This document shows, piece by piece, positions 23,515 through 63,700 of a stretch of 64,000 nt of DNA. This DNA comes from Mytilus galloprovincialis. Its lineage: Eukaryota; Mollusca; Bivalvia; Mytilida; Mytilidae. A model generated the notes under the pieces. The model was not told the origin of the DNA, searched no databases, and was given only the letters and a program-made list of their open reading frames with translations. The translations under genes and the position numbers were made by a program. The stretch spans positions 34,817,102 through 34,881,101 of the forward strand of contig NC_134850.1 in assembly GCF_965363235.1 (NCBI RefSeq), given 5' to 3'. Position 1 is the first letter of the stretch. Each line of letters starts with the position of its first letter.

Positions 23515-37608
<14,094 letters not shown>

Positions 37609-39600: not shown

Positions 39601-42600
39601 TTATTTATTTAAAACAAATCCACCTGGATATCCGTAAGCCGCACGATATTTATAACCATATACCAGGAGACCAAACTTAACATTTTTGTCAATGTGGGAA
39701 ATTGTGAATGAAGTATACCTTACATCCAAGCTGGCAGATATACTCTTATAAACAGTATTGAACTTCTTAACTGGTGTTACATCAACCGCATGGAATAATA
39801 AATTACCGCCATTAAGACGGAGACCATCTACATTATCATTTGAATTTATAATCACAGTGACGTAATTGGTAAAGTCAGAAGTGGTTGGTGTAGTAATGAC
39901 GTAGTTGCTAGAAAAATGGTCGATGGCGGGCAGTAAGGTCATGAACGGGTTGACAGTAACATTTGATCTTTCATACATTGTGTACAAAGTAACCATGACT
40001 GGTCTCTGGGCGTTGATAAAGTATCCATCATTTGGTAATTCTAGCTGATTTACATATTGCTTGTAGGTGTTCTTATAGAACCCATTCTTTCCCGTGATAT
40101 AAACAGTCGTAAACGGATCTCTTGCAACTATTCGAAGAATGATATGTTTGGCATTTGCTATTTTAGGAACCATATATGTCTCGGCAAATTGATTTGTCGG
40201 TATAAGCATTTCTGTTTGGAAATTTCTTTCACCTAAATTAATGGGAGAGTCCATGTTTCCAGAAAGTACCGCAATTGGTTTGTCACTCTCGATTGTTCCT
40301 CCAGTCGAAATATTAATATCATCTGATGTAAATAATAATCCTTCAAAAGCATTCTTTATCAGAATGTCCATAGTGTTGTTTCCTGGTTGTAACTTTGCCC
40401 TAATGGAAGTGTTGTCTTCTATCGCTACAACGCCCACCGATTTGATTTCCTTCGGGTATGTTGCAATAATGTAGTTTCTCCCAATGTCCTTAACCGGAAT
40501 AGCACTGAAAGCCTCTCCGGAACAACATGAGTATTCATTTATTGCAGCGACAAATATAGGCTTATTCGAAGAGATGGTAATTCCGGTGTCATAAATATTA
40601 TATTTAGCGTTGTCAGACCGTTTACTAAAACTGTGAAGTGTGTTTGGTACGTGTGTTCGAATGACATGTCCATTAGCCTGTCCAGTAAGTTGAAGTCCAT
40701 TGTGCTTTGAGCTAATTTTAACATTATAGTTAGTATATGGTGACGTTATAAGAATCTCAAGGCTTATGTTGGTATTCGTACGTTGATGATTTGGCATGAA
40801 GAAAATAGCGAATAAATTCCCATAGTGACCTGTAAAATGGATTAAACTGTATAGACAATATTATAACTTTTTATGCATCTTGTTTTATACTTAGAAAAAA
40901 AGAGAGTCGGAGATCTGGGGACATAAGTATTGTTGTAAAATTTATCAACGAATGAAGTGCTGTTTTCATTTTTAAAATGGCAAACATGAATGACCATGTG
41001 TTAATGGAAGAAACCCCATGCAGTTAAGTGAAGAGCTTATGGTTATGCAAAATTATAATCTCTACTTAACTACTTTTTGAACACTTGAGGAGAGAGCCGG
41101 TCTTTTAAATCAAGGTAATGTATAAACTCCAGAAGCTTGTCAATCTATTGTATTAAAAGCAATTCTGTTTCTTTTTATATAATTTGAGAATCTCTGTTTT
41201 TAACATGTGGCCTTCGACCTATCATTTGACGTTTATAGTATAGAAGATATTTTAAATGCCAATCGTGTCGTTTGCAGAGAGTTTATAAATACTAAGGCTG
41301 TTCTACTACAGGAATAGATTACCTTAGTTGTATTTGGCAAAACCATTAGGAATTTTTGTCCACATTGCTCTTCAACTTCGTACTTTATTTGGCCTTTTTA
41401 ACTTTTTTGGATTCGAGCGTCACTGATTAGTCTTTTGTAGACGAAACGCGCATCTGGCGTAAACACAAAATTTAATGATTAATTTATTTTAAGACCAACA
41501 GACTGGAAGGCCATTCACATTAAACATTATTTGCAGAACCAAGGGTCCTAATCAAGACAGCCAAAATAATCTAACATTAATTGTGCTTTGATGGAGTAGA
41601 AGAATTATAAATGCGTGTTGCAAATTACATCATTCAAGACACAAACAACAAAATAATAAACAAAGTACTATATGTCTTAACAAAATGCTGCTATCTGAAA
41701 AGTGTGTTTTTGATCTGCATGACATTTATAAGAAAACACTACTTACCACTCGCAGCAACAAATTCTAAAAGAACGATAAATACTCAAGATAACAAATATT
41801 ATGTCACAAAAGCAAAATATAGGTTTCAAACCGTATGGATATCCCATATCTATCCTTGTGAATATTAAAATAAATAATAAAAGATCAATGTGCCTGTGGA
41901 ATGCCCATGCTCAAACATTGCTATTTTCTAAGTTAAATATGAACATAACGTCAGAACGGTATATACTGTTCAAATTCCAACTTCGTTTGTGTGTTGTGGT
42001 TCTTATTTTTTTACAGAGATTCTGTATTCAACTAACTCAGCAATGGCTGCCGAGTTCAAATTTGGAATATTTTAAATTCTTCGTAATAATATCATCACCA
42101 AAAATTACTAAAGAAAAAAGTTCGGAAACAAATCCTCATACATAACAAGAGCAGCGTAAAATATATTAAAGATTAGATTTAATGTAAACTGTTTTCAACT
42201 ATATTTCACCCTTAGTTAGGCTACCTATAAAACCAGGTGTAATCCAACATTTTCCGCATAACATAGATTGACGATTACTTTGACATTGGTCAAAGTGAAT
42301 TCGCCTATAAATAACACTAATGCAGAACAGAATATAAATGGAAATTACCTGATTGTGTCGTGGTGCTGTAATTTCTCCAACCCTTTGTTGTATAAGAAGT
42401 AGTATTGTACATTGGTAAAGTGGTCCAGTGATGATGAGGTTCAGTGGTTTCATAGTGCCATGGTCGTGTACTGTTATAATGATTACTTGTGGTGAATGAG
42501 ATACTGTTTTTGTGACCTATATTGAAGTGTATTCAACATTTATAAGTTTAAGACGACAAAGGACCCATTACTGATTCGATTAATATGTTCACATGCTAAT

Positions 42601-45600
42601 ATTACGATGTGATTGCATCTTGAAATTAATGGCCCTTACTAACGTGCCCGTAGTAAACTAACAAGAAAGGGAAGCTTTTTTGTTGACATATTCGAAAAGA
42701 ACAAAAATGTAAAACGGTTATTAATCTGTGCTCTAAAATCAAACTGTGCAATCATCACCATAATACTGCATCTGTATTTTTTGAAATTGTTGGATTTAAA
42801 GCTTTTCGTCTTGATTTACCCTTCAGTATTGATGAGTCGAGTGTCACTAAGGGTGTCCTATGAAGACGAAAAGCGCTTCTTTCGTAACAAATTATAAACC
42901 TGGTATCTTTGACCAGTTTACCTGCGATTTTATATTCATGCATATTTATAGCTATATCAGAGACACATACCCATCTGCAGTTTCCGGTGGCCATGTCGAT
43001 AGTTAATGAAATAAAAAGCGCTTTACAGATCGATTTATGAGTTTCGAACAGCGGTATACTACTGTTGCCTTTATTTACAACGTGTGCATCCATTGTTTAT
43101 AGTTTCCTATAAATATTTTTTTTCTGATTTTATATTCTTTTCAGTATAGAAATGACAGAAATCTTATAAATAAAATTTTAGCAAATGTGTAATTTCGATA
43201 GGTATGGATTTGGCACCAATGAGTTTTTTAAAACTACATTATTTGACTACCCATGCATGGTCCGCGCTGTCCTACTTTTTTTGTGCATTTGAATAAAAAA
43301 TACCTATAGAAATTGATATAATTTAGATTTGCCCGCTTAAAGAAATATGTGAATAACACGGCAGTATTTCAATGTTCTGCTTATAATCTTTATGGAACCA
43401 AAATAAAAAATTCATGTAAAAATAACCAAATCAAAAAGATTTTTTATTAAATAAGATTAACATTAATGTATATGTACTTATCAGTAATACAAGTACTGTA
43501 AATCGGATAATCACAGAATAATTATAGATTATCGTTGATCATCTCGTCGAGATTCATTTTCTCGCTTAAGCCGGTACGACGAAAGTGAGAAAAGCAACCG
43601 AGTTGAGATGACCAATGATAACCTGTTTATCACTATTTTACCTACATGTATGACGCCACGTGCCCCTTTAGTTTGTAGCGATTTTTTCATATCACTAGAC
43701 TCCGCTAGAAAATTTTGTAAAATAGTGATAATAGTATATATGTCATAATGAGCTTACAATTCTTATTACACAAGTCGCTCGTGCAACACGCTGAACATAA
43801 CGTGTTTCTTTTACCATTACGTCTATTTCCGCTGCGTTTACCAAATATGCTGCCACCATTTATAGAACACAGCTACAATTGTAATAATCTGTAGGCACAA
43901 AAATATATATCTCGCATATATGCAATTTTATAGCATAAAGCAAATGTTGCAATCAAAATGGCAATATTTCAACATTTAGACTATGCAAACCATTTAAAGT
44001 GAATTAACGCTAATTGAAGATTCAGAGCTTAATATCCTACTATGCCAAATTGAAAACAATATTAAAAGAAACGCTACTGCAACTGCAACTGCATACCAAA
44101 TACCATCACCTTATCATAAGCGGGTCACATTAAACTGACATCATCAAACAAATTAATAAATTATCCAAATCAAAGTTTTATAAGTTTCTTATCAGTTCTA
44201 TATAATTTTTACTTTTTTGACTTAACAATCAACAAATATTATATATAAAAAAAAGAAGCTGTGGTATGATTGCTTATGAGACAACCCTCCACATGAGACC
44301 AAAATTACAAAGAAGTTAACAACTATAAGTCACCGTACGGCCTTCAACAATGAGCAAAGCCCATAACGCATAGTCAGCTATAAAAGGCCCTAATAAGACA
44401 ATGTAAAACAATGCAAACGAGAAAACTAACGGCCTATTTCATGTATAAAAAATGAACGAAAAACAAATATGTAACACATAAACAAACAACAACTACTTAA
44501 TTACAGGCTCATGACTTGGAAAAGGCACATGGTGGGGTTAAACATGTTGGCGGGACCCCAACCCTACCCTTAACCTGGAATAGTGGAATAATAGTGCCAC
44601 ATAAGAAAACCATTTATATCTGATAGTAAACAGATACCGTATATGTTCAGCAACGATTGAATACAAAGCTATGGACATCTGATAATTAGTCCCATCAGGT
44701 TAGCGTGTTAGAATGGCCTTTTACTATTGAGACTGCCAATTATATAATGGAAAGTTGATACCGTACATCTGTTGCAAAGAATTTGCAAGCATTTTTCGGA
44801 CATTTTATTATTTTTCATAGCAGGTTATAGTGACGAAATTCCTGTTATTCAACGACAATGAACATAGTTTTAGTAGCAGCCAAATATATCAAATTGATTT
44901 TTCCTCATAATGTCGTTTTGTTTCTAAGAACTATTAATCGGTAGAATAATGAGAGTATGTATTGATAAACTGCTATAAGTATTAATATCCTTACGTGCTT
45001 TGAAATACATTTGGTTGCGTAAAAGATATCACCAAACTCTTCTTGCTGTTCAATATGACATGACTGGAAATGAAAATAAAAGAAATATATTTACTATAAT
45101 TTTGGAGAAACGAATTTTTAGTTGTATAGTTCCATTTCAAACCATTATCTGAAAACATAGATAGCTACATGCAGATACAAAACAAAATGACTATCACCTT
45201 CATGCAATTAGCAGTGCATTGTAGAAAAAGCACTCTTACCAGTGTGTGTATTATCAAAATCAATGTGATTGTATTGGTCGTTTGGGTTAAAAACTCATAT
45301 GTATAATAAAGGTGCTAAAGATTTTGTGAAAGTTTTATTTAAATCTGGTCAATGATTTAGTGAGGATCTCAAAAACATGATGCCTTGCTCTTGTGGTAAC
45401 TATAGCAAGGGCTACCATAAATCATATTCAATAAATCCTAAATTTAAAAGGGTTCCTATACTGTCAGGTTTTAAATATATCATGCACACGGACAAACTAA
45501 CAAAACGGTAGTACGGACAGGAGAATGAAAGGCCGACCGCTTAAAAACATATTGATCACTTAAGTCTACATTGTATATAACCCTAACTGAATGTAACTGA

Positions 45601-48600
45601 CAAATTGACTGTGTAATTCGCCTTTTCAGAATCTATATGACTATCTTGAGGACAATTGGTAACTTTATTGTTATTACTCTTAAATGGAAATTTACGTCTT
45701 ATCATTGGTGGAACTTCCATGTAGGCCAATCACAATATTTTACGGTACACTTTTGAAAATATAATAACCATAATGTATAATCTTCTGAAATTTCGAATTA
45801 TAGATCCTGCATAACCACGGTCGACACTCAGATGTGTTGATATACTTTGTTTGACCTATTTCTTTTAACTTTTATATTGTGTTTTAAATTATATTGCCAT
45901 TATCCTTTCCCTTTTGAGTGCCTTAATTTGTACATTGAAGTTTATTGAAAATGCTGGCACCATTTTCATTAGTCATGTTGTTAGCCAAAGCTACCTACAT
46001 CATCTCTCCCACAAACAGTAATCGAGTCGCACTTCTCAGGATTCCGTGCCTGTTGACAGTTATAACAAATAGGACCTCTATACGTTGGGAAACCTGAATA
46101 AAAACAGATGTACATAATTTTATTAGAATACTACAGTTGAATAGTTGACAATGCTATATTATGAGTAACAGGAAGACTGGTTGAACTTTCAATTAGTTGA
46201 TATTCATATTGTTCCCGTATTTAAATGTACTGTAACGGACTTTGATAACGATCCTGTTCCCCCAAGTTGACCTTAGGATGTTAGGTGCATAAGTATTTTT
46301 TTCTTTTTTGGTCCCGTTTGTCATATAACTTTCAAGTTACCAAATGTTTCTCTTTCAATTTGTTGAGAGCTTCTTATAGACGTAAATAATGTTCTTATCA
46401 ATATGTTTTATAATAGATGAATTCTTTATATAATGTTTTTAATGTTATAGTCTCATATAATTCTGTACAGAATGGCCCTCTTTTTATATCTATATATTAT
46501 TTGATTTCATGTAATGTTGTATTATATATTATTGAGAGATGAGACTTAAATAAAATATTGAATTGAATCTTTATATCTTTGGTAAGCTTTCTTGTTAGCT
46601 GAACCGTGAAATCATTATAAGGTAAGGTATACTACCATCCTTTCGGAGTAGTCTAGTCCTACAGAACGATAGATTGGTCCAGTCAAATTAGAATATAGAT
46701 CTCTAATTTCGTTATACTACACTGCATATGTAATATAGCAAAATCAGAGATCTATATTTTAAATTAATTGAGATTGTTCTAGTCAATTCTAATAAATGAA
46801 GGCCTGGGTATCATGCCTAACTTATCATTAACTTCACAGTTTAGCTATCAAACAAGCTAACCAAGCATATAACCTTTACCTAAACAATCAAAACATTTGC
46901 TGTAAATTAAAAAAAAAGTATACCTTGTTCTCCACAGCCTTTTGCATTACACAAATCACCAGAACAACACCTAGAACATGTCTTTGTCCCTGCCTGAGCT
47001 GTCGATCGTAGTCCAGGTGTTGTATTGGTGCAAAGCTTCAAATATATGGAATTTAGGGTTCACGAAAATGTAACAATATACATAATAACTCCGTTTGAAA
47101 TTGTTTTTACTATTGTTATGACGTATGAAAATTAAGCACCACTTCATAAATGGTGGGCTATCGAGCGAACTTCTTCAACAACGCTATTTAAGTAAAAAAA
47201 TATAGACCATGTATGTAGAAGTCCAAGAAATATCGAAGCTACATATGATGATTAAAGGGGGCATAAACTAAAAAAATCGTGTAAGGTCATCCTTGCTTGC
47301 GGGAGATTTAACCTTAATTTCTTCATAACGTAATTACAAATCAACACGTCGAATGAACGGCAATACTAGACATCTTTACATACAATCTTGCTTTGTTTTT
47401 ACATTTTATCTGTCACAGTATATTTTCACACTTAGTGCCTGTGTATATATCATAAAACGGAACGATCCTGCTCGGAAATAAAAGTTAGAAATAGATAAAT
47501 AAGTATAATCTATCTGTATTCAACCAAAACCTGCTCGCAAACGTAACCAAAAACCTTCGCGCAAACTCAATGAATTCTTGTGCGCAAGTTTTATAGTAAT
47601 GCGCGCAAAAATAATGCACCGATATTTGCCATTCTACATTTAGCACATTAAAATCAATTTCCAATATCTTATGAATTAAACACGAAAAAAAATAAATAAA
47701 AAAATTAATTTACAACAAATGCTTGTCACTGTTAAGACAAATACAAGCAGGTCATGTTTGGGTGCCTTATTTCTATATCCTTAAATGTTTTAGACCATTT
47801 CTTCAATTCTGTATTTAATTTTCCCTTTAATCAAAATCTCTCTATTCTTTATATTTCAGCACCATACTATTCCTTATGCTTTAGTTTGATGTTTTACCCA
47901 TTTTTCTCTTTTCTATATATTATTTTTAATAATTTATTTATCGTTTTTGTTCATTATTCTCTATTCTGTTAACCCCATCTAGACCCTTATAAAATCTATA
48001 CAAATCAATTAATCATATATTGCGAAATAGAGTTCTTAATTTCTTGATTACTAAATACTTTGTTTCATCGCTTTCACATTGTTGAAATAGCACGATTATT
48101 GTAGACGGATTTGAAATGAATTTTATTAAATAATAGAAAACCGACCTCTTTTGACCTACATCCAACATCGTACAAAAGCTCCCCGTCTAGTCCTGTGTAT
48201 TGATCCAAATAGCAAGTCTGAAAAGAAAACAGAATAAAAAAAAGCTGATTTAAAAGAGAAGGTGTTTTCATATGGTGACCTTAAACATGAAAGTGTTTGT
48301 GAAAACTATGGTATTTCTGTATTAAAGAATATTTGTAAATTATATTTTCATAAAATTATCGATGGCCTATTTCGTTGGTTATTTTATTGGTCATTTAAAA
48401 TAAATGTTATGTTACAAATGTATATTAATAAAATTGAGAATGGAAATAGGGAATGTGTCAAAGCGACAACAACCCCACCATAGAACAGCGTCAGCCGAAG
48501 GCCACCAACGGGTCTCCAATGTAGAGAGAAACTCTTGCACCTGGAGGCGTCCTTCAGCTGGCCCCTAAACAAATATGTATACTAGTTCAAAGATAATGGA

Positions 48601-50766
48601 CGTCATACTAAACTCCGAATTATACACAAGAAACATAAATTAAAAAGCATACAATACTGACGGGGTTGAAATGTATGTTTTGTATAGGAATTTATTTAGA
48701 GGTATTGACATTAAAAAAACCGCTGAAAGCAAACCATACAGTCCAGCGAGGTCTTACAGTATAAGAACATTACCATAGCGTGTAAAACATGAAGTAGCAT
48801 GTCATAACCTTTTTCTTAAAGATACTTGCATTCCTTCTATCGGCCTCATTTGATTCATAGCTAAAAAGCACTAGCCTTAAGGAGGCTTGTGAGTATAAGA
48901 TTTTCAGAAAAAAATTGAACATTAATTTGTCATTACAAATTTTATTTATTACCTTAAGTAATTGTTACTTTATCATATGGTACACAAAATTCATTCCAAG
49001 AAAATGAATTCGTGTTGGCCCCAGGTGACTTTTAAAATGCAGATATCATTGAAAAGCTCCAAATTATCTCCTTTTAGTGCAAAAATGCCATTTTTTTGGC
49101 ATTAAAATTGAAATATCTTTTTTAACTCATCGGTGACCTATACTTTTTATTGTTGTTTTCGAATAAGCTGTACAAAAACTAGATAATTGTAAAATGTAAG
49201 CGATTTCTGTAATTAAGTTCTTTTTTTTATTTCGATATTACCGCTATTTCTCCTATTAGTTCAACAGAAAAAAAGGACATGAACAAAAATGTATGCTTCT
49301 TTCGAAGGCAGATTTTGAGCGTAAATGAACGGTGACCTCATTTTTTATTTCATTTTTCAATTAAGTATAAGATAAAGTTCATCTAAAGAAAAATATAGAG
49401 AAATCTTATATTAAATTAAAAAAAAAATGATTTAGACCCGCGAGCCTCCTTAAACATATATTTATAACGAAAATGTATTATCAGCTACACAATGTGCAGG
49501 AAATAATTGTGCAATCGGAGGTGGAAATAAGCCGTACTAGCCAGATGAAAATAAATGCTCAGTACGTCATAAATTCCCATGACCTCCTACCCATATTACA
49601 CTTCTGAAAATCATCTCTAGTGAACTGGTGAACGCCACTTGAAGCGAGTAGTTTTCGACTCTGATATTAGTTCGATATGAACTATCGAAAATTGCAAGAT
49701 TTTCTGTGATGGGTCGTTTGGTGCCTTTCAAGTTTTTGCGCAACCTCAACTAATAATGGGAGCCATGATATATCAAAGTTTAGTGAATAAGGCAATAAAA
49801 TGTAACACCAAAAAATCCAAGCAAAATAAAATACCTCATGAGAGTCGCATGTTGTTTTTCCATGACAATGTCGTGGTGAGATAACTCGATCACAACGTAA
49901 ACACTGTAAGGCGTAAGCATCTGTCAAAAACATTCAATAAAAACATTATTGAAGATCTGGGTGTAGGGTGGAGAGGTGTCTTCAACTCCTTTGTCTATAT
50001 TGTTATATCATTTTTCTGTCTTCTAGAATTATAATGCCCATTCTCTATTCGTTATATCTTAAGTCCTTTTATTCTCGGTTCATTATATATTTTTCCTTAT
50101 TTATCCCTATTTCATATATTTCCCCCTTTATTCTATTTTTGTTGCCAATTATTCTCTATTTTGTAAATCAAGAACCTCGATCATTATTTACAATGTGATT
50201 AAAAATACACGTGTACCGTCGTAAAATTAATTTATCATTTCTGAATAATGTTTGTAGTTCTTCTTGTCGATATTCGACAATTGTAAAAATCTAATAAAGT
50301 TAGAAATATTTCGAAACTAAAATTGTTCATCTGAAATAAATTGAATTCAAGGCGAACCTCCAATCTCATTTCTTTGGGAAATTGATTTCAGAACTTATTG
50401 GGCGTTTTGATCAAATGACTTTTAAATTGGAGTGACCAGTTCCAAAAATATAAGGAATGATGTGATAAATTAGCTTAAACTGTAAATATATAAATAAGTA
50501 ACATAATGATTTTTTTTCAGTTTGAAAGAAAAATATTACCATGCAAAATGTTATTAACCAAGTATTTCACAGAAAAAAAAATCAAAGATTTTCACAATAA
50601 AAGTCCAACTTGCACACACAAGTTACTCCTCAAAGCGGATATTTTTCGAAATGAATTTTAAAGACGATCATTTCAATATGAATTGGTTATCATAATATGT
50701 TTTCTGAAGGACTATACTCACTGAATGTTGCCTCCTGTAGAAGAAAACCAAGGAGAAGATGAATTC
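39601..50766 (-). CDS. Secreted protein: signal peptide, two Ly6/uPAR (LU) domains, Thr-rich linker, IgGFc-binding domain
   Basis: Nine exons on the minus strand: 50766-50722, 49920-49835, 48217-48146, 47035-46924, 46093-45999, 45063-44995, 43872-43758, 42516-42349, 40829-39601. All junctions have AG/GT and all phases agree. A first exon with the ATG lies further upstream and is not settled. The exon at 50766 encodes a hydrophobic leader (IHLLLGFLLQEA). Exons 2-4 and 5-7 each encode one LU domain: exon A LxCxxC...PxxC...C, exon B with Cys at both ends around a G-[ED]-[LI]-[LF]-Y core, exon C ending C-x2-CC-x2-DLCN. Exon 8 is a 56-residue Thr/His/Tyr-rich linker, phase 1 at both ends. Exon 9 (408 residues) matches the FCGBP N-terminal IgGFc-binding domain: GNLFAIFFMPNH at its start, then YNIYDTG, SGNMDSPINLGERNFQ and LPAIDHFSSNYVI. 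At least 663 residues. Likely secreted, disulphide-rich and adhesive or recognition-related; the role is inferred. Confidence 0.85.
40830..42348. other. Intron 8 of the LU/IgGFc gene
   Basis: Contains a minus-oriented family A copy at 41275-41480, which includes both TTTGGCAAAACCATTAGGAA and a GACGAAACGCGCATCTGGCG end. The rest is AT-rich without a recognised element. An open frame at 41611-41868 has no splice context. Confidence 0.6.
42517..43757. other. Intron 7 of the LU/IgGFc gene
   Basis: Contains a truncated minus family A copy at about 42790-42910 (GAAGACGAAAAGCGCTTCTT), a family B-like tail near 43035-43090 (AACAGCGGTATACTACTGTT), and a small fold-back at 43529-43621. The fold-back arms are 23-bp imperfect inverted copies with TCATCTCG/TTGAGATGA cores. 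Confidence 0.6.
43873..44994 (+). repeat. Intron 6 of the LU/IgGFc gene with a family C copy at 44245-44600
   Basis: AGCTGTGGTATGATTGCTTA, GAGACAACCCTCC, CGCATAGTCAGCTATAAAAG and the ACCCCAACCCT block are in family order, plus strand, matching 18790-19270. The remainder has no recognised feature. Confidence 0.75.
45064..46923. other. Introns 5 and 4 of the LU/IgGFc gene
   Basis: Mostly unassigned AT-rich sequence around exon 46093-45999. At about 46370-46568 a segment ends AATAAAATATTGAATTGAAT, the kind of short 3' tail seen on LINEs, so it may be a LINE 3' end (weak). At 46693-46757 two inverted ATATAGATCTCT-type arms enclose about 40 bp. Confidence 0.4.
47036..48145. other. Intron 3 of the LU/IgGFc gene, nothing recognised
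   Basis: AT- and pyrimidine-rich. A T-rich open frame at 47754-47972 (plus) is low-complexity and unsupported. Confidence 0.4.
48437..48625 (+). repeat. Dispersed repeat family E
   Basis: The GAGAATGGAAATAGGGAATG and CAAAGCGACAACAACCCCAC blocks, then GCCACCAACGGGTCTCCAAT and GCACCTGGAGGCGTCCTTCA. Reverse-complement fragments occur near 18130-18215 and 9805-9890. Confidence 0.6.
48877..49453. mobile_element. piggyBac-like MITE, 569 bp between TTAA duplications
   Basis: TTAA (48877-48880 and 49450-49453) flanks an element with inverted ends GGAGGCTTGTGAG and GGAGGCTCGCGGG. TTAA target duplication is the piggyBac hallmark. No transposase frame is present, so the element is non-autonomous. It sits in intron 2 of the LU/IgGFc gene. 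Confidence 0.75.
49921..50721. other. Intron 1 side of the LU/IgGFc gene, nothing recognised
   Basis: AT-rich. A T-rich plus frame at 49968-50198 has no motif or splice context. Confidence 0.4.
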
Positions 50767-51328: not shown

Positions 51329-52196
51329 GTCATAAACCTTTTTTCTCTCTCTAGCTACAGATTAATTCAGATCACAGTTCAAATTATCCCCTTATTGGCT
51401 TCTGAAATTTGTTTGTTTGTCGTCATCATTTTAGCCGCATCAACATTGACGTATATGCATGGGGTATAGCAGTGCACTCGCAGGAACGGACTCGATAACC
51501 CATCTTGTTGAAGAACGACTTTGGAACCTTTGTTCTATGTCTTAAGAATTTTGCATAAGGGTAAATGCCACTACGCTAGGTATCATAATCATGGGTCCGG
51601 TTTTTGTGACAGGTCTTTCTGCAGCCTGGTAGATTGTAATGAAAAAAGAAGTATGTAATTTCAAGTCGGATTTACTGTATCGGTTATTTGAATAGAATAT
51701 TTATAGAGAAATGAATTCAAACATATTTATTTATAGCGGATTTGGAAAAAAATTATTGCAACTTATATTAATCCCTTTCCACTGTGTGGGTGCGAGTGCT
51801 GTCTTGTAGTGGCATAATATTATCCTGCAGTCTTATCGAAAGGGGTGTCTTTTACATGCAAGAGATAGGCCAGCCGCTCTCTCTTAACCATGTTAACATG
51901 CACGGGTCAGCCATTTATCGTCCAATTCCGACGGACTATATCATCGTATCTCATGTCCATACTCGCAAATGGTGTCAAGAGAGCGCCGAAAATTCAGTCC
52001 ATGACATTTAATTTCTCCTTATGTTAATATGTTAAAAACAGTGCTCAAAATTGCAATGCAAACAAATATTACACTTGAATATTCGTTTTAAAAATACTTC
52101 AAACATACACAAACCTTTCATGTCTGATAATGCCGTATAGTATTTCGAAATAAAGTCCTTATCTTATCTCGAATACATTATATTACATTGTATGAC

Positions 52197-52604
52197 ATTT
52201 TAAAATCCCAAGAGAGGAACGACTTTGCCATAAATGTAAAATACTAGAGAATGAGAAACATTTTTTACTCTATTGTGAGTATAATAAAACTCTAAGAAAT
52301 GATTTTTTTCATCACATATGTACTGAAAATAATAACTTTAATAATTTAAATGAAGAAGAAAAAATTCAATATTTACTAAATCCATCATCGCCTTTACAAA
52401 CAAATAAGTTAGGATCCTTCTGGAAAAAGTCATTAGAACTGAGGGCAGGGGACTCTTAACAACTTGTTTGTTGTTAAAAAAAAAATTGATGCTGTTGTTA
52501 TTGTGTATGTTTAATATGTATGTTTATTGTGTTTATTGTGTTAATATATGTTGGTCACAAACTGTAAAGTTTATATGACAATAAAATATTTGATTTGATT
52601 TGAT
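52197..52604 (+). mobile_element. LINE 3' fragment, 408 bp, inside the left 360-bp repeat
   Basis: An open frame reads RLCHKCKILENEKHFLLYCE: the C-x2-C...H-x4-C zinc-binding end of a LINE reverse-transcriptase protein. It ends WKKSLELRAGDS and a stop. The 3' tail is (TTTGA)n. It is flanked by TATGAC at 52191-52196 and 52605-52610, a target-site duplication. The right 360-bp repeat lacks it, so it inserted after that duplication arose. 5' truncated. Confidence 0.85.
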
Positions 52605-52674
52605 TATGACACCGCCAAAGAAATAACGAAAATGTTATACACTGTCATACATTTATTTCGTTATGATTCAGGTA

Positions 52675-53767
52675 TCAAAAAAGGGAGGCAGTTTAATTTA
52701 TCAATTGAATGCCGATTAGAGTTATTTGACAAACTGGTGAAACCAATTCTTTTATACGGATGTGAAGTATGGGGATTTGGAAAAAATGACATTATTGAAC
52801 AAGTTCATCTCAAGTTTTTAAAGCATTTACTTCACCTCAAGAGATCTACCCCAAGCATGATTGTGTACGGTGAAACTGGACGATACCCATTGGAAATAAG
52901 CATTAAATGTCGAGTGATATCATATTGGTGCAGGCTGCTTATAGATGAAAATAAGTCATCATCAATCTTATATATTATATTCCCGATATCACACAAACAA
53001 TGATGATATTTTATTGATAAAGAACATTAAAAATATATTGGATTTTCAAACTTATTTTATATGCAAAATACCGACCTCACCAAATGGTTACCAAAAAAAT
53101 ATCAAACTTAGATTGGAATTCAGCTATTCAGAACACATCAAAATGCACTACTTATAGGCTCTTTAAGGAAAATGTTGAATTTGAGAATTATTTCAACATC
53201 ATAAATGACCGAGATACATATACACTTTGTAAATTCCGAACATCGAATCATTCACTGCCAATAGAAAAGGGGAGATGGCATAACATTGACAGAAGTGATA
53301 GAAAATGTTCAATATGTACGAAAAGAGATATCGGAGACGAATACCACTATATTTTTGTTTGCCCGGCTTTACAAGATGAAAGAAGAAGATTTATTCCAAA
53401 TGAACTAATTCCAAGACATAACATTATTACATTCAACAAACTGTTTAATTAAAAAAAAAAAAAAGACACTAAGAAACCTCTGCAATTTTATAAGATGTAT
53501 TAATAGTCAGCTCACTCCTTCTTAACAACCATACTTTATTTACCATACTTATACTTATAGAAATTTAGAAATGTATTTCTTTATACAATTTTAACTTTTA
53601 CATTTGACTATATAAGTCTATATATATATATATTCTTTTATATGTTATCTCATCCGAAATTTTGAATTTTATGCATTTTTAATGCATTTTTTTATTTTTA
53701 TGTATATTATTTTTTAACTTCTCTGTTACCTTTGCACTTGCATAGTTTTATGAGAATAAACTATCAA
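52675..53767 (+). mobile_element. 5'-truncated LINE, 1093 bp
   Basis: Two frames (about 52675-53003 and 53084-53452) encode the C-terminal part of a LINE reverse-transcriptase protein: KKGRQFNL, LFDKLVKPILLYGCEVWGFG, then CSICTKRDIGDEYHYIFVCP, a C-x2-C...H-x4-C zinc-binding end. One frameshift near 53000-53090 separates them. The 3' part contains an A-run at 53453 and ends TGAGAATAAACTATCAA. The clade was not fixed by eye; the YGCEVWG block is shared by several LINE groups. Both ends abut the 360-bp direct repeats. Confidence 0.85.
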
Positions 53768-57224: not shown

Positions 57225-58054
57225 TATGTAGGACTCTAAAGTGCGATGGTCACGCTAAAGTGCGATGGTGTATGCTAAAGTACGACGGTGTCTCACGCTA
57301 AAGTGCGATGGTCCTTTGTTCGCTAAAGTACGATGGTGTCTCACGCTAAAGTACGATGGTTGTTTGTTCGGTAAAGTACGATGATGTATCACACTAAAGT
57401 GCAATGATCCAAATGGTAAAATTCGAAGATTAAAACATCGAGGTTCAAAAAGTCTTTTTGTAAAAGCTAATATGCTAAGGTTTAACATATGTGATAGGCT
57501 TTACAATTTACCGGTAGGCTGAAGTGATTGTTTCTAAATTAACAAGTCCGACCATGTTCTAATTGCTATTAAGGTAATTTATGTTTTGCAAAATATTATT
57601 TTTCATGTAAAATGAATTTTTAACAATTTGAAGCATATTGAATATTTGGATAATTGGTGTAGATTGCTGTTCACACTACATGTAATGTTACAACCTATTT
57701 TACATTTGTCATTGAAAATTAAAAAAACACTCGAAAAAAATATACATTGTGATTCAGCCGACAAAGAACACGGTTAAATTAAATCAATTACTAGTAAGTA
57801 ATGGACATTTGATGTAAAAATTGTTACTCAAAATATTGCTCATCTATCTTCCGGCATATTCATATTTAGTTTGTATAAACGACTGTTAACGTCATAATCC
57901 AACTACGTTTCTAACGTCTATACTTTTGCGGACCATTGCACTTTAGCGTATACCATCGCACTTTAGCGAGATCATCGTACTTGAGCGTATACCATCGCAC
58001 TTTAGCGAGACCATTGTACTTTAGCGTCCCCATCGCACTTTAGAGTCCTACATA
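57225..58054. mobile_element. Foldback element with subrepeat arrays in its termini, 830 bp
   Basis: Both ends read TATGTAGGACTCTAAAGTGC inward. The left terminus (to about 57425) has eight or nine units and the right terminus (from about 57928) about six units of CTAAAGTGCGATGGT or its GTACGATGG variant, at a spacing of 18-25 bp, in inverted orientation. The middle 500 bp is AT-rich without a coding frame. Arrays of short repeats inside long inverted termini are the hallmark of foldback transposons. Flanks resemble each other only loosely (ATATTTAT and ATATATAC), so the target duplication is uncertain. Confidence 0.85.
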
Positions 58055-58125
58055 TATACATAATAACAATGGACATGAGCTCTTAAGAGCTCTTAAAACC
58101 AGTCAGGGGTACTACTTGTACAAGT

Positions 58126-58966
58126 CAGGGTTGGCAAAGTATTACCCACCCTGGAATTCCCGGTCGGGAAAAAACGGGTTTTCCCGGCCTGGGCAATACT
58201 CCCAGAAATGGGTAATAGTGGGCATTACTGGGCAATATAATTTTTTAAGCTTATTTTAACACAAAATAGTAAAGACTTGTTGTAGTTTCATAGTATAACA
58301 GCTAAATATATACTTTTTATACAGATAACCATTGACAGTCATTTCTAGAAAATTCCATTTCATTCTCTTCTCTATTAATTTTATATATTGGCAGAATACA
58401 AAATTTGCACATTTAAAGATACCTTTTAATTACCAAGTATTGTTTCAATAATCTGAAAAATGCATTTTATTGCAGTGTTTAAGTGAATTGTTAATTTTAA
58501 TTGTTATACATTCATATTGCTAAATAAACACCCTACAGGGTCATGCCATTAACACTTATAAAATTGAAAGGACTGATTATTGTTACATAAACAAATCTGT
58601 GTTCTAACATGTCTAATCTGAATAATTACTTATTAATTAGTGACAGTATATATACATTATTTAAATGTGATGTTTCTTTAATACATGTAATTGTTAATTC
58701 TTAATAGGAGCTATATTCATTTGAAAAAAAAATATTTATTTGCTTTTATTTACAGTTTGCCAATCTAGACAAATGCTAAACAAACAAAATATAAATATCT
58801 TATTAAATGTATTGCATTTGTGTTTATCACTGAATCCTCTTTAAAATTCAGACAAATATTTTATAGTACCCAGTATTACCCACTAAAACCCAGTAAAACC
58901 GGGTTTTCCCAGTATTTCCCACTGGGCTGGGCAATACTCATCAAACCCGGGTTTTTGCCAACCCTG
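58126..58966. mobile_element. hAT-type MITE, 841 bp, perfect 8-bp target duplication
   Basis: Inverted ends CAGGGTTGGCAAA on both sides, flanked by GTACAAGT at 58118-58125 and 58967-58974. Just inside both ends are many TATTGCCCA/GGGTAATA and CCCGG blocks that let the termini pair further. An 8-bp duplication with CAGGG ends is diagnostic of hAT. No coding frame is present. It is inserted in the left terminal repeat of the 58100-63407 element. Confidence 0.92.
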
Positions 58967-59279
58967 GTACAAGTTATTTTTATTTACTTGAATAAGTAAA
59001 AAAAATATACTTATATAAGTAAATTATAATGTTTAAATAATCTCCCCTTAATTTTCTTAAAAATTTACTTACATGTATCATGCTTATACCATGTATACAA
59101 GTAAAAAAAAAATGCAATCCCACCACAATTCTCAAGTTTGAGATAAAAATTCATGCCTGTAATGATTTTTATACGACCGCAAATTTTGAAAAAATTTTCG
59201 CCGTATATTGCTATCACGTTGGCGTCGGCGGCGTCGTCGTCGTCGTCGTCCGGCGTCCGAATACTTTTAGTTTTCGCAC

Positions 59280-60030
59280 TCTAACTTTAGTAAAAGTGAA
59301 TGGAAATCTATGAAATTTTAACACAAGGTTTATGACCACAAAAGGAAGGTTGGTATTGATTTTGGGAGTTTTGGTCCCAACATTTTAGGAATTAGGGGCC
59401 AAAAAGGGCCCAAATAAGCATTTTCTTGGTTTTCACACTATAACTTTAGTTTAACTTAATAGAAATCTATGAAATTTTGACACAAGGTTTATGACCACAA
59501 AAGAACGGTTGGGATTGATTTTGGGAGTTTTGGTCTCAACAGTTTAGGAATTAGGGGCCAAAAAGGGCCCAAATAAGCATTTTCTTGGTTTTCGCACAAT
59601 AACATTAGTTTAAGTAAATAGAAATCAATGAAATTTAAACACAATGTTAATGACTACAAAAGGAAGGTTGGTATTGATTTTGGGAGTTTAGGTCCCAACA
59701 GTTTAGGAATTAGGGGCCAAAAAAGGGCCCAAATAAGCATTATTCTTGGTTTTCGCACAATAACATTAGTTTAAGTACAGTGTAAATAGAAATCAATGAA
59801 ATTTAAACACAATGTTAATGACTACAAAAGGAAGGTTGGTATTGATTTTGGGAGTTTAGGTCCCAACAGTTTAGGAATTAGGGGCCAAAAAGGGACCCAA
59901 ATAAGCATTTTTCTTGGTTTTCGCACCATAACGTTAGTATAAGTAAATAGAAATCTATGAAATTTAAACACAAGGTTTATGACCATAAAAGAAAGGTTGG
60001 GTTTGATTTTGGGAGTTTTGGTCCCAACAT
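59280..60030 (+). repeat. Tandem repeat, unit about 165-180 bp, five copies
   Basis: Each unit has GAAATCTATGAAATTTTAAC, ACAAGGTTTATGACCACAAA, TTGATTTTGGGAGTTTTGGT, TAGGAATTAGGGGCCAAAAA and CAAATAAGCATTTTCTTGGT. Units end near 59435, 59600, 59755 and 59925. A single further unit occurs at 61336-61510. Confidence 0.85.
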
Positions 60031-60600
60031 AATAAGGGGCCCAAAGGGTCCAAAATTAAACTTTTGTTTGATTTCATCAAAATTGAATAATTGGGGTTCT
60101 TTGATATGCTGAATCTAACTGTCATGACTGTGTATGTAGATTCTTAACTTTTGGTCCCGTTTTCAAATTGGTCTACATTAAGGTCCAAAGGGTCCAAAAT
60201 TAAACTTAGTTTGATTTTGACAAAAAATGAATCGGTTAGGTTCTTTGATATGCTGAATCTAAAAATGTACTTAGATTCTTGATTATTGGCCCAGTTTTCA
60301 AGTTGGTCCAAATCGGGGTCCAAAATTAAACTTTGTTTGATATCATCAAAAATTGAATAAATGGGGTTCTTTGATATACCAAATCTAACTGTGTATGTAG
60401 ATTCTTCATTTTTGGTCCTGTTTTCAAATTGGTCTACACTAAAGTCCAAAGGGTCCAAAATTAAACTTAGTCTGATTTTAACAAAAATTGAAATCTTGAA
60501 GTTCTTTGATATGCTGAATTCAAAAATGTACTTAGATTTTTTATTATGGGCCCAGTTTTCAAGTTGGTCCAAATCAGGATCTAAAATTATTATATTAAGT
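60030..60600 (+). repeat. Tandem repeat, unit about 120-130 bp, GGTCCAAAATTAAACTTTG type
   Basis: Four to five units alternate a two-state pattern (GTTTTCAAATTGGTCTACAT against GTTTTCAAGTTGGTCCAAAT). They recur at 61520-62040 in the second half of the dimer. Because unit lengths are near multiples of three, open frames persist across it on both strands. Confidence 0.8.
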
Positions 60601-60790
60601 ATTGTGCAATAGCAAGTCTTTTCAATTGCACAGTATTGCGCAATGGCAAGAAATATCTAATTGCACAATATTGTGAAATATCAAAAAGAAATTTAATTAG
60701 AGTTATCTTTCTTTGTCCAGAATAGTAAGCAAGAAATATCTAATTGCAAAATATTGTGCAATAGCAAGATTTTTTTTTAATTGGAGTTAT
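60600..60790. repeat. Palindromic TTGCACAATATTGTGCAA-type tandem repeat
   Basis: Three to four units of a self-complementary TTGCACAATATTGTGCAAT block spaced by AGCAAGAAATATCTAA. The same kind of array is present at 62045-62145. Confidence 0.75.
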
Positions 60791-63700
60791 CTTTCTTTGT
60801 CCAGAATCAACTTAAATCTTTGTTATATACAATATACAATGTATATTCACTTTTTACTACCAACTGATAAATTAAAATAATCTTTACCATTCAGTGATAA
60901 CAAGCAGTTTTTTTTACATCTTAATATTTTATGATGTATTTAAATGAGTAGTTATTGTTGTAAACTCCATTAGAAATTTTAATTGAGATTAGTTTTGGAA
61001 TAAGGGAAAGGGGGATGTGATTAAAAAAATTGGGTTCAATTTTTCTCATTTGAAATTTCATAAATAAAAAAGAAAATTTCTTCAAACATTTTTTTGAGAG
61101 GATTAATATTCAACAGCATAGTGAATTGCTCTAAGAGAAACAAAAATTTTAAGTTCATTAGAACACATTCATTCTGTGTCAGAAACCTATGCTGTGTCAA
61201 CTATTTAATCACAATCCAAATTTAGAGCTGAATCCAGCTTGAATGTTGTGTCCATACTAGCCCTAACCGTTCAGGGTTCAACCTCTGCGGTCGTATAAAG
61301 CTACGCCCTGCGGAGCATCTGGTTTGAGTTGAGGTAATAACAGTTTATGAATTAGGGGCCAAAAAGGGGCCCAAATAAGCATTATTTTTTGTTTTTGCAC
61401 CATAACTTTAGTATAAGTAAATAGAAATCTATGAAATTTAAACACAAGGTTTATGACCATAAAAGGAAGGTTGGGTTTGATTTTGGGAGTTTTGGTCCCA
61501 ACAGTTTAGGAATAAGGGGCCCAAAATTGAACTTTGTGTGATTTCATAAAAAATTGAATAATTGGGGTTCTTTGATATGCCGAATCTAACTATGTATGTA
61601 GATTCTTAATTTTTGGTCCCGTTTTCAAATTTGTCTACATTAAGGTCCAAAGGGTCCAAAATTAAACTTAGTTTAATTTTAACAAAAATTGAATCCTTGG
61701 GGTTCTTTGATATGCTGAATTTAAAAATGTACTTAGATTTTTAATTATTGGCCTAGTTTTCAAGTTGGTCCAGATGGGGGTCCAAAACTAAACTTTGTTT
61801 GATTTCATCAAAAATTGAATAAATGGGTTTTTTGATATACCAAATCTAACTGTGTATGTAGATTCTTAATTTTTGGTCCAGTTTTCAAATTGGTCTACAT
61901 TAAGGTCCAAAGGGTCCAAAATTAAACTAAGTTTGATTTTAACAAAAATTAAATTCTTGGGCTTATTTGATATGCTTTATCTAAACATGTACTTTGATTT
62001 TTGATTATGGGTCCAGTTTTCAAGTTGGTCCAAATCAGGATTCCATATCAAGTATTGTGCAATAGCAAGAAATTTTCAATTGCACAGTATTGCACAATAG
62101 CAATAAATATCTAATTGCACAATATTGTGCAATAGCAATTAATTTTCAATTGAAGTTATCTTTCTTTGTATAGAATAGTAGTTGATAATATATGTTGGAA
62201 ATTTGCCAGACATGACTATGATGTCATTTTCTATTTTTTTTTGCCAATAACTTTATGTAAATAACTTCATTGGAAATTTGCCAATATAAAATGTTGCTGA
62301 TGAAGCTTTTTTCCTTATTTTATCTAAAATGTTTTTAGATAATGTATGTTGGACATTTGCCAGACATGACTATTTACATTTTGGATATTGAACCATTATA
62401 GTTTAATATTAAATTTAAAAACTTTAAATTCTAATTTTCATTTCTTAAACCAAATTCATAATGTGACATAAACCTATGTTGTGTCAACTATTTAATCACA
62501 ATCCACATTTATAGCTGTATCAAACTTAAAAGTTGTGTCCATACTTGTTCTCATTTCAGATTTCATAAATAAAAAGAAAATTTCTTCAACCATTTTTTTG
62601 ACAGGATTAATATTCAACAGCATAATGAATTGCTCAAAGGCAAAAAAATTTTTAAGTTCATTAGACCACATTCATTCTGTGTCAGAAACCTATGCTGTGT
62701 CAACTATTTAATTTTAGATTTAAATAAGTTTGAAGAAGAAATCTTTAATTGATTTGTAAAATCTTGACATTTGTTTTGTGTAAAAAACCCATATAATGTC
62801 AAAAATTTGATCACAATCCAAATTCAGAACTGTATCACGCTTAAATGTTTTGTCCATACCTGCCCCAACTGTTCAGGGATCGACCTCTGCGGTCGTATAA
62901 AGCTGCGCCCTGCGGAGCACCTGGTTCCCAGGTAATTTGTTGAATTAATGAGATGAAACATTGATCTCTAATAAAAAATTTCAAAGAAACTGATTGCACA
63001 AAGATCTTAAGTATTTGAGCAAAGCCTTCAAAAATTGCTCCTTTGGGGCTTGTAATGACCAGTGTTCTGAAGATAACAGACAAATGGGATTTTCATTGTC
63101 CATGAAATTACACTTAAATGATTAGTAAAGGCATCTGCAATGGACAGACAAATTAAAATTCTAGTAGAGCAAAGAAATCCTAAGAATTTAAGAAATAAAG
63201 ATAAGATGACCTTTTCACTAACATGCATATAAGTAAAAAAATCTGAATGTCTAAGGGACATAACTACAAGTCATTTTTTTTACCTAAAAATAACATTTTC
63301 TTGTATACATGGTATAAGTACCCTACAAATTTACTTATATGAGTATAAATTTTTTTTTACTTCTCCAAGTGAATAAAAATTACTTGTACCAGTAGTACCC
63401 CTGACTGTAAATCGACTGATATTAATAAACAAAACATACATGTTATAACATCAGATACACATACACCACAAACATACAGACAGACAGCACATACATGTAT
63501 TAATACATAGATAGCACATGCAGAATAAAAGCTAAGCAAGATATATATCGGAGTAGAACATGCAAAATTAAACACTATAAGCACAAACAAAAGACTGCAT
63601 GCAGCTATAGCAAAGGTAATGCATAAGCAAAAGAAATAAAAAGCTAAATAAAAAATAAAAATAACTGCAAAAAGATAAAACATAAAAAGAACAAACAGCA

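Follow-up and report, generated by a model that had tools for sequence, protein, structure and literature searches.

Results

A predicted nine-exon gene on the minus strand

The window, a 64-kb stretch of mussel DNA, carries on its minus strand a chain of nine exons that runs from 50766 to 39601 (Table 1). Reading of splice sites and frame showed that the exons join in frame through eight GT-AG junctions and that the frame stays open through all nine, the first stop being the TAA at 39601. Such a chain had been proposed in the first-pass annotation and was borne out here, as was the phase pattern: the three exons of each LU domain read 1-0, 0-0, 0-1, followed after LU2 by a linker exon of 1-1. 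The predicted product is 662 residues long and partial, without the first coding exon. It consists, in order, of a hydrophobic N-terminal stretch, two LU domains (LU1 and LU2), a linker rich in threonine and a C-terminal part of 409 residues. On the evidence of the DNA sequence, we consider the observation of a nine-exon LU-LU-linker-IgGFc gene confirmed.

Table 1. Predicted exons of the gene, in coding order, with exon phases and the evidence for each. E values are those of profiles built from paralog pieces only; coordinates in the last column are those of the best-ranked window ORF.
Feature	Position	Strand	Phase	Evidence
Exon with hydrophobic part of presumed signal peptide	50722..50766	-	1-1	GT-AG, open frame
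LU1 exon 1	49835..49920	-	1-0	Exon chain; ranks third, E 0.21, not significant alone
LU1 exon 2	48146..48217	-	0-0	Exon chain; E 4, not significant alone
LU1 exon 3	46924..47035	-	0-1	Exon chain; top of LU1-type exon 3 profile (46996-46922), E 1.2e-9
LU2 exon 1	45999..46093	-	1-0	Exon chain; top of exon 1 profile (46076-46002), E 8.5e-6
LU2 exon 2	44995..45063	-	0-0	Exon chain; top of exon 2 profile (45063-45007), weak, E 0.12
LU2 exon 3	43758..43872	-	0-1	Exon chain; top of LU2-type exon 3 profile (43854-43759), E 8.9e-5; read-through past donor gives short tail and stop
Thr-rich linker exon	42349..42516	-	1-1	Exon chain, composition
Possible microexon of 18 bases, optional	41747..41764	-	1-1	Splice sites and frame alone; inclusion keeps frame
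IgGFc-binding domain exon with stop codon	39601..40829	-	1-stop	Pfam PF17517, 2e-30; own-genome match of 109.3 bits; alignment with own-genome members and a bacterial one

For LU2 exon 3, an acceptor at 43888 was rejected because it breaks the frame, which is restored by 43872. The linker is a 56-residue segment with 14 threonines and begins at the last LU2 cysteine, the codon for which is split across the LU2/linker junction. A straight reading past the LU2 donor also yields a cysteine, followed by a 17-residue tail to a stop, so that a shorter LU-LU product is possible.

The region from 56000 to 50766 was scanned for a first coding exon, taken to be an ATG exon under 160 bases long, in matching phase and with a donor scoring 4 or more out of 6. 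No convincing candidate was found in this range, where only two weak 'MK' candidates occurred (52121-52115 and 53983-53977); an ATG exon near 51455-51465 that had been suggested earlier was not among the candidates with this length, phase and donor score. The protein had also been described as secreted. The N-terminal stretch is hydrophobic and no strongly hydrophobic stretch follows it (the highest 19-residue hydropathy further on, in the product without its first exon, is 0.86), but the first exon is missing from this product; we regard secretion as likely.

Several other features were seen in the window. ORFs of a BEL/Pao-type LTR retrotransposon lie about 2.7 kb downstream of the gene on the minus strand (31687-36941) and include DUF1759, DUF1758, a Pao A17 peptidase, RVT_1, integrase parts and DUF5641. 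Two plus-strand ORFs at 52599-53452, with no Pfam match up to E 0.01, presumably resemble the tail of a LINE reverse transcriptase. A perfect (TGA) microsatellite of 71 copies is present at 24913-25126, and dense tandem repeats occupy 57236-62152, with units of 19-48 bp at about 57.2-58.0 kb and of 35 to 261 bp at about 59.3-62.2 kb.

The LU domains

LU1 and LU2 each contain 12 cysteines at nearly identical spacing (2-8-5-5-17-5-17-2-0-4-4 in LU1 and 2-8-5-5-16-5-23-2-0-4-3 in LU2) with a CC-x4-CN end in both. Such a spacing with a CC-x4-CN end is a hallmark of LU domains. The first-pass annotation attributed the pair to duplication of a three-exon unit, a proposal supported by the shared phases, by the near-identical spacing of the 12 cysteines and by 33% identity between LU1 and LU2 over 83 residues (E 5e-11 for that single comparison). 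In Pfam, LU1 alone scored just over the cut-off for Toxin_TOLIP (PF00087; 22.2 bits vs 21.2) and under that for UPAR_LY6 (PF00021; 20.6 vs 24.8). LU2 alone was below the cut-offs (Toxin_TOLIP 16.6 vs 21.2; UPAR_LY6 13.8), and in the scan of the whole protein both families were as well (19.0 vs 21.2 and 18.3 vs 24.8, respectively). Up to E 1 the LU part gave three PDB matches, all weak: LYPD1 (E 0.026) and LYPD6 (E 0.26 and 0.34). These LU/Ly6-uPAR proteins have a similar cysteine pattern, ending C-x2-CC-x4-CN. Many proteins of this group are small, stand-alone and often GPI-anchored; here, in contrast, two putative LU domains stand ahead of a large IgGFc-binding domain. We treat the LU labels as weaker than the IgGFc label.

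The cysteine pattern also bears on whether the gene is a decayed or untranscribed copy. That reading would account for the failure to find a first exon in 56000-50766 and would have company elsewhere in the genome, where some IgGFc matches are split or contain stops. The nine window exons, however, are open and have GT-AG sites, and 12 cysteines are kept in each LU domain at nearly the same spacing; we give it very little weight.

As a further check on the LU exons, the window was translated in six frames and its 2,908 ORFs were searched with four profiles made exclusively of paralog pieces. An exon of the window gene ranked first with all four, and each of the two exon 3 profiles picked its matching window exon (Table 1). 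The paralog pieces had originally been found by their likeness to the window exons, so the test is not fully independent and provides support rather than proof.

The IgGFc-binding exon

The C-terminal part matched the Pfam family IgGFc_binding (PF17517) at 2e-30, with 106.5 bits against a cut-off of 25.6, over profile positions 2-297 of 297. It was the single IgGFc match stretch in the predicted protein, and no vWD was found in the Pfam scan of that protein. The exon had no PDB match by sequence up to E 1, and in NCBIfam one match far below the cut-off; PHROGs gave none. An AlphaFold model of the exon alone was rejected at a pLDDT of 36. No relatives were found in viral contigs or, up to E 1, in phages.

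A plasmid of Bernardetia (Bacteroidota) contains a stretch, L001:2501-3562, whose translation is 24.5% identical to the window exon (weak, E 0.09); the alignment covers much of the exon and includes the C-terminal YGY motif. The stretch has no listed gene; the gene table of the plasmid is incomplete.

A search of the mussel's own genome (1.38 Gb, 331 contigs) gave 95 IgGFc matches at E 0.001 or better, many of them clustered. The counts are lower bounds on matches, and since some matches are two pieces of one exon, the number of loci is slightly below 95. The window copy scored 109.3 bits and the best copy 225. Seven aligned relatives, six from the own genome and one bacterial, had 22-28% identity to the window exon. 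Other invertebrates possess modular immune families; together with the size and clustering of this family and the low identity of its aligned members, these would suit an immune role in which the IgGFc domain is a variable microbe binder in the haemolymph, with the LU pair as its spacer or as a docking site. Divergence alone is, however, not proof of immune function, and we consider this alternative possible but doubtful.

LU exons upstream of other IgGFc exons

For each of 26 further IgGFc exons, roughly 6 to 9 kb of upstream DNA was examined, which with the window makes 27 loci; eight loci with flanks of only about 1.5 kb (L002-L009) were excluded from this count. LU exons were found upstream of the IgGFc exon and on the same strand at seven of the 27, namely the window, L019, L022, L024, L025, L035 and L036. 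This tally is a lower bound because the LU match of L021 sits 14 kb upstream, past the range examined. On the antisense strand of the loci outside the window there was no LU match with E below 0.1.

The paralogs retain the LU exons to different extents. All six are present in L024, although its two exon 2 pieces, until included in the profile, were either weak (E 0.054) or not detected. L022, L025 and L035 each have LU1 exon 3 and the three LU2 exons, to which L025 adds a weak LU1 exon 2 (E 0.035). L035 was also found by profiles that did not contain it, at E 0.0018 to 4.8e-6. Only exon 3 was found in L019 (E 6e-6 with a profile not containing L019) and in L036, where it is weak (E 0.037) yet plainly similar to exon 3 of L035. 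Paralog LU exons with readable splice sites have the phases of the window gene, 1-0, 0-0 and 0-1; no donor above the score limit was found at L025 LU1 exon 2, L022 LU1 exon 3, L022 LU2 exon 3 or L035 LU2 exon 3. Four of the five paralog LU domains tested were over a Pfam cut-off. LU2 of L022, L024 and L025 each exceeded one cut-off and LU2 of L035 did not.

The linkage was then measured over the whole genome with one 32-residue query, LU1 exon 3 of L025, at up to E 10. Of the seventeen matches obtained, 11 have a same-strand IgGFc exon located at most 30 kb downstream of them (10 of 16 if the query locus is discounted). By chance 0.0175 of the 17 would be expected in this position, an estimate that assumes independent matches, which duplicated loci are not. 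None of the 17 has an opposite-strand IgGFc exon within 30 kb; for two, which sit in clusters, a further IgGFc exon lies on their other side within that distance. The 11 linked matches (E 4e-15 to 3.6) include the query's own locus, the window and an ambiguous one, C10:89164095, for which another LU match lies nearer the same IgGFc exon. No IgGFc exon lies near the remaining six (E 0.07 to 6.8).

Taken together, LU exons precede the IgGFc exon at ten or more further loci, the six named above on sequence evidence and four on position only (C10:11.285 Mb, C12:31.348 Mb, C12:31.430 Mb and L021). The LU plus IgGFc arrangement singled out in the first-pass annotation is therefore real, but it is not isolated, and the same-strand linkage at other loci makes the window gene a member of a modular family.

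The same data bear on the alternative that the exon chaining has merely joined two neighbouring genes, or two products of a single locus: a tandem-LU protein terminating after LU2, perhaps membrane-anchored, and a separate IgGFc gene. The frame past the LU2 donor does run 17 residues to a stop, the read-through ends of L024 and L025 are strongly hydrophobic (mean hydropathy 2.2 and 2.6, respectively, whereas 4% of 818 random read-throughs reach 1.5), and six of the 17 LU matches have no IgGFc exon nearby. Yet the linker and IgGFc exons join LU2 in frame, LU exons stand upstream of IgGFc on the same strand at seven of 27 loci and in 11 of 17 genome-wide matches, and hydrophobic character is missing from the read-through ends of L022 and L035 and only mild in those of the window (0.79), L019 and L036. 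Two separate products are, in our judgement, improbable. The hydrophobic ends in L024 and L025 might belong to a shorter membrane-anchored product or be just T-rich intron.

Composition and history of the family

Modules other than LU were also recognised upstream of the IgGFc exons. The window gene and L025 have an LU pair and a Thr-rich stretch with no EGF by pattern; LU is accompanied by EGF in L019, L024, L035 and L036, and L022 has an LU pair with ShK-like and EGF modules. EB-like modules, with or without EGF, occur in L016, L017 and L026-L028, and EGF precedes IgGFc in L033 and L039. Thr-rich stretches follow LU2 also in L022, L024 and L025, where they continue the open frame of exon 3. 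Pfam scores exceeded the cut-off for EGF in L022, L024 and L035 and for EB in L026 and fell slightly short of it for the ShK-like piece of L022 (20.5 vs 20.9); the remaining module names were assigned by eye. The ShK-like piece is a double module at L022:4866-5229 (reverse complement), between the LU pair and the EGF exon. At C12:31.35-31.47 Mb several IgGFc matches have internal stops or are split in two and are likely decayed members of the family.

A small LU tree places LU1-type rows apart from LU2-type rows at moderate support (85/87), although two rows are less than half filled and long branches meet. This separation suggests that the LU duplication is probably older than the gene copies. 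The IgGFc tree has 27 rows, five of them LU rows (L035 and L036 are not included and L021 is not labelled LU), and supersedes a 20-row tree with only two LU loci. In it the window groups with L020 and the C11 cluster, the other four LU loci lie on the other side, and at least three changes of the LU label are forced. The IgGFc sequences nearest the window, those of the C11 cluster (L010, L012, L013 and L014), had no recognisable LU over 7.7 to 18 kb of upstream DNA. The LU cassette may be old and have been frequently lost or missed, or it may have moved between copies.

Discussion

Comparison with known IgGFc-binding proteins

In FCGBP, a secreted mucus protein of vertebrates with an IgG Fc-binding domain, an N-terminal IgGFc domain is followed by vWD-C8-TIL units, according to the available text of PMC10206775. 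The mussel product, probably secreted as well, differs in that its IgGFc domain is C-terminal, encoded in one exon that ends in the stop at 39601, and follows LU domains without a Pfam vWD. PRIT proteins of frog glue and other skin secretions have repeated IgGFc domains, have lost vWD and carry disordered glycosylated repeats (PMC11237159, available in part). They resemble the mussel model in having IgGFc without vWD, joined in PRIT to the disordered glycosylated stretches; their IgGFc domains are in tandem, whereas the model has one stretch, and neither 'Ly6' nor 'LU domain' occurs in the text available of that paper.

In the same text (PMC11237159), the database hits of a frog IgGFc-domain protein are reported to include a Bombina peptidylaminoacyl-L/D-isomerase. 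This would be in line with a role of the IgGFc domain as an enzyme, a peptidyl L/D isomerase working on secreted peptides. We think this role very unlikely.

Closer to the mussel, the accessible part of an oyster study describes secreted IgGFc-binding proteins, some with EGF, that were selected at the pediveliger stage and larval settlement (PMC6337334). These too are bivalve secreted proteins annotated as IgGFc-binding, but EGF, vWD and Cys-rich regions are described in that part and LU is not mentioned. Limpet adhesive proteins have blastp similarity to this group (PMC7333891, in the portion available). In the text available on FCGBP, PRIT and the oyster and limpet proteins, LU domains are nowhere mentioned. 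The terms 'IgGFc-binding' and 'uPAR' both occur in a study of mouse colon (PMC10444815). No description of the LU plus IgGFc-binding combination was found in the open-licence literature, parts of which were accessible, a weak test of its absence in print.

A proposed modular glycoprotein with an LU head

We favour, with somewhat more confidence than doubt, the reading that a real gene lies here and that its product is a secreted glycoprotein of modular build, with an IgGFc base that docks and an LU pair that binds, within a family that swaps cassettes. The frame, the exon phases, the domain matches and the LU-IgGFc linkage elsewhere in the genome are observed; a single mRNA, secretion, docking and binding are inferred. 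Weighing against this reading are the sub-threshold Pfam scores of LU2 and of the whole-protein scan, the possible shorter product that stops after LU2, the six LU matches distant from IgGFc exons, the C11 sequences with no LU over 7.7 to 18 kb upstream, and the three or more label changes in the IgGFc tree. The product, made from one mRNA, would begin with a signal peptide, carry its two LU domains ahead of the Thr-rich linker and end in the IgGFc-binding domain. Across the family, an IgGFc domain that is mostly a single open frame would follow cassettes that are flanked by phase-1 introns and can be exchanged, whether LU pair, EGF, EB-like or ShK-like.

By analogy with FCGBP in mucus and PRIT in frog glue, the IgGFc domain may anchor the protein in a secreted gel, mucus or matrix. 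To our knowledge, the roles of IgGFc-binding domains outside vertebrates are poorly known; IgG binding is not expected in an animal without IgG. The LU pair, again by analogy, may be a specific head for a partner protein or a microbial surface, and different heads would then give different binding. A mucosal or haemocyte role, as suggested in the first-pass annotation, is a guess.

A broader proposal, to which we lend only limited credence, is that molluscs possess a large and so far undescribed family of secreted proteins with swappable heads, in which LU pairs or EGF, EB-like or ShK-like modules have been added by phase-1 exon shuffling to an IgGFc base, and that this family forms a diversified recognition repertoire in mucosa or haemolymph. 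If this is true, its logic would be comparable to that of other invertebrate multi-domain immune families. The 95 IgGFc matches, with at least 11 loci that have LU upstream (four by position only), offer natural variants for questions about base and head. If transcripts confirm the gene, three-finger domains would serve as exchangeable heads on a large secreted protein.
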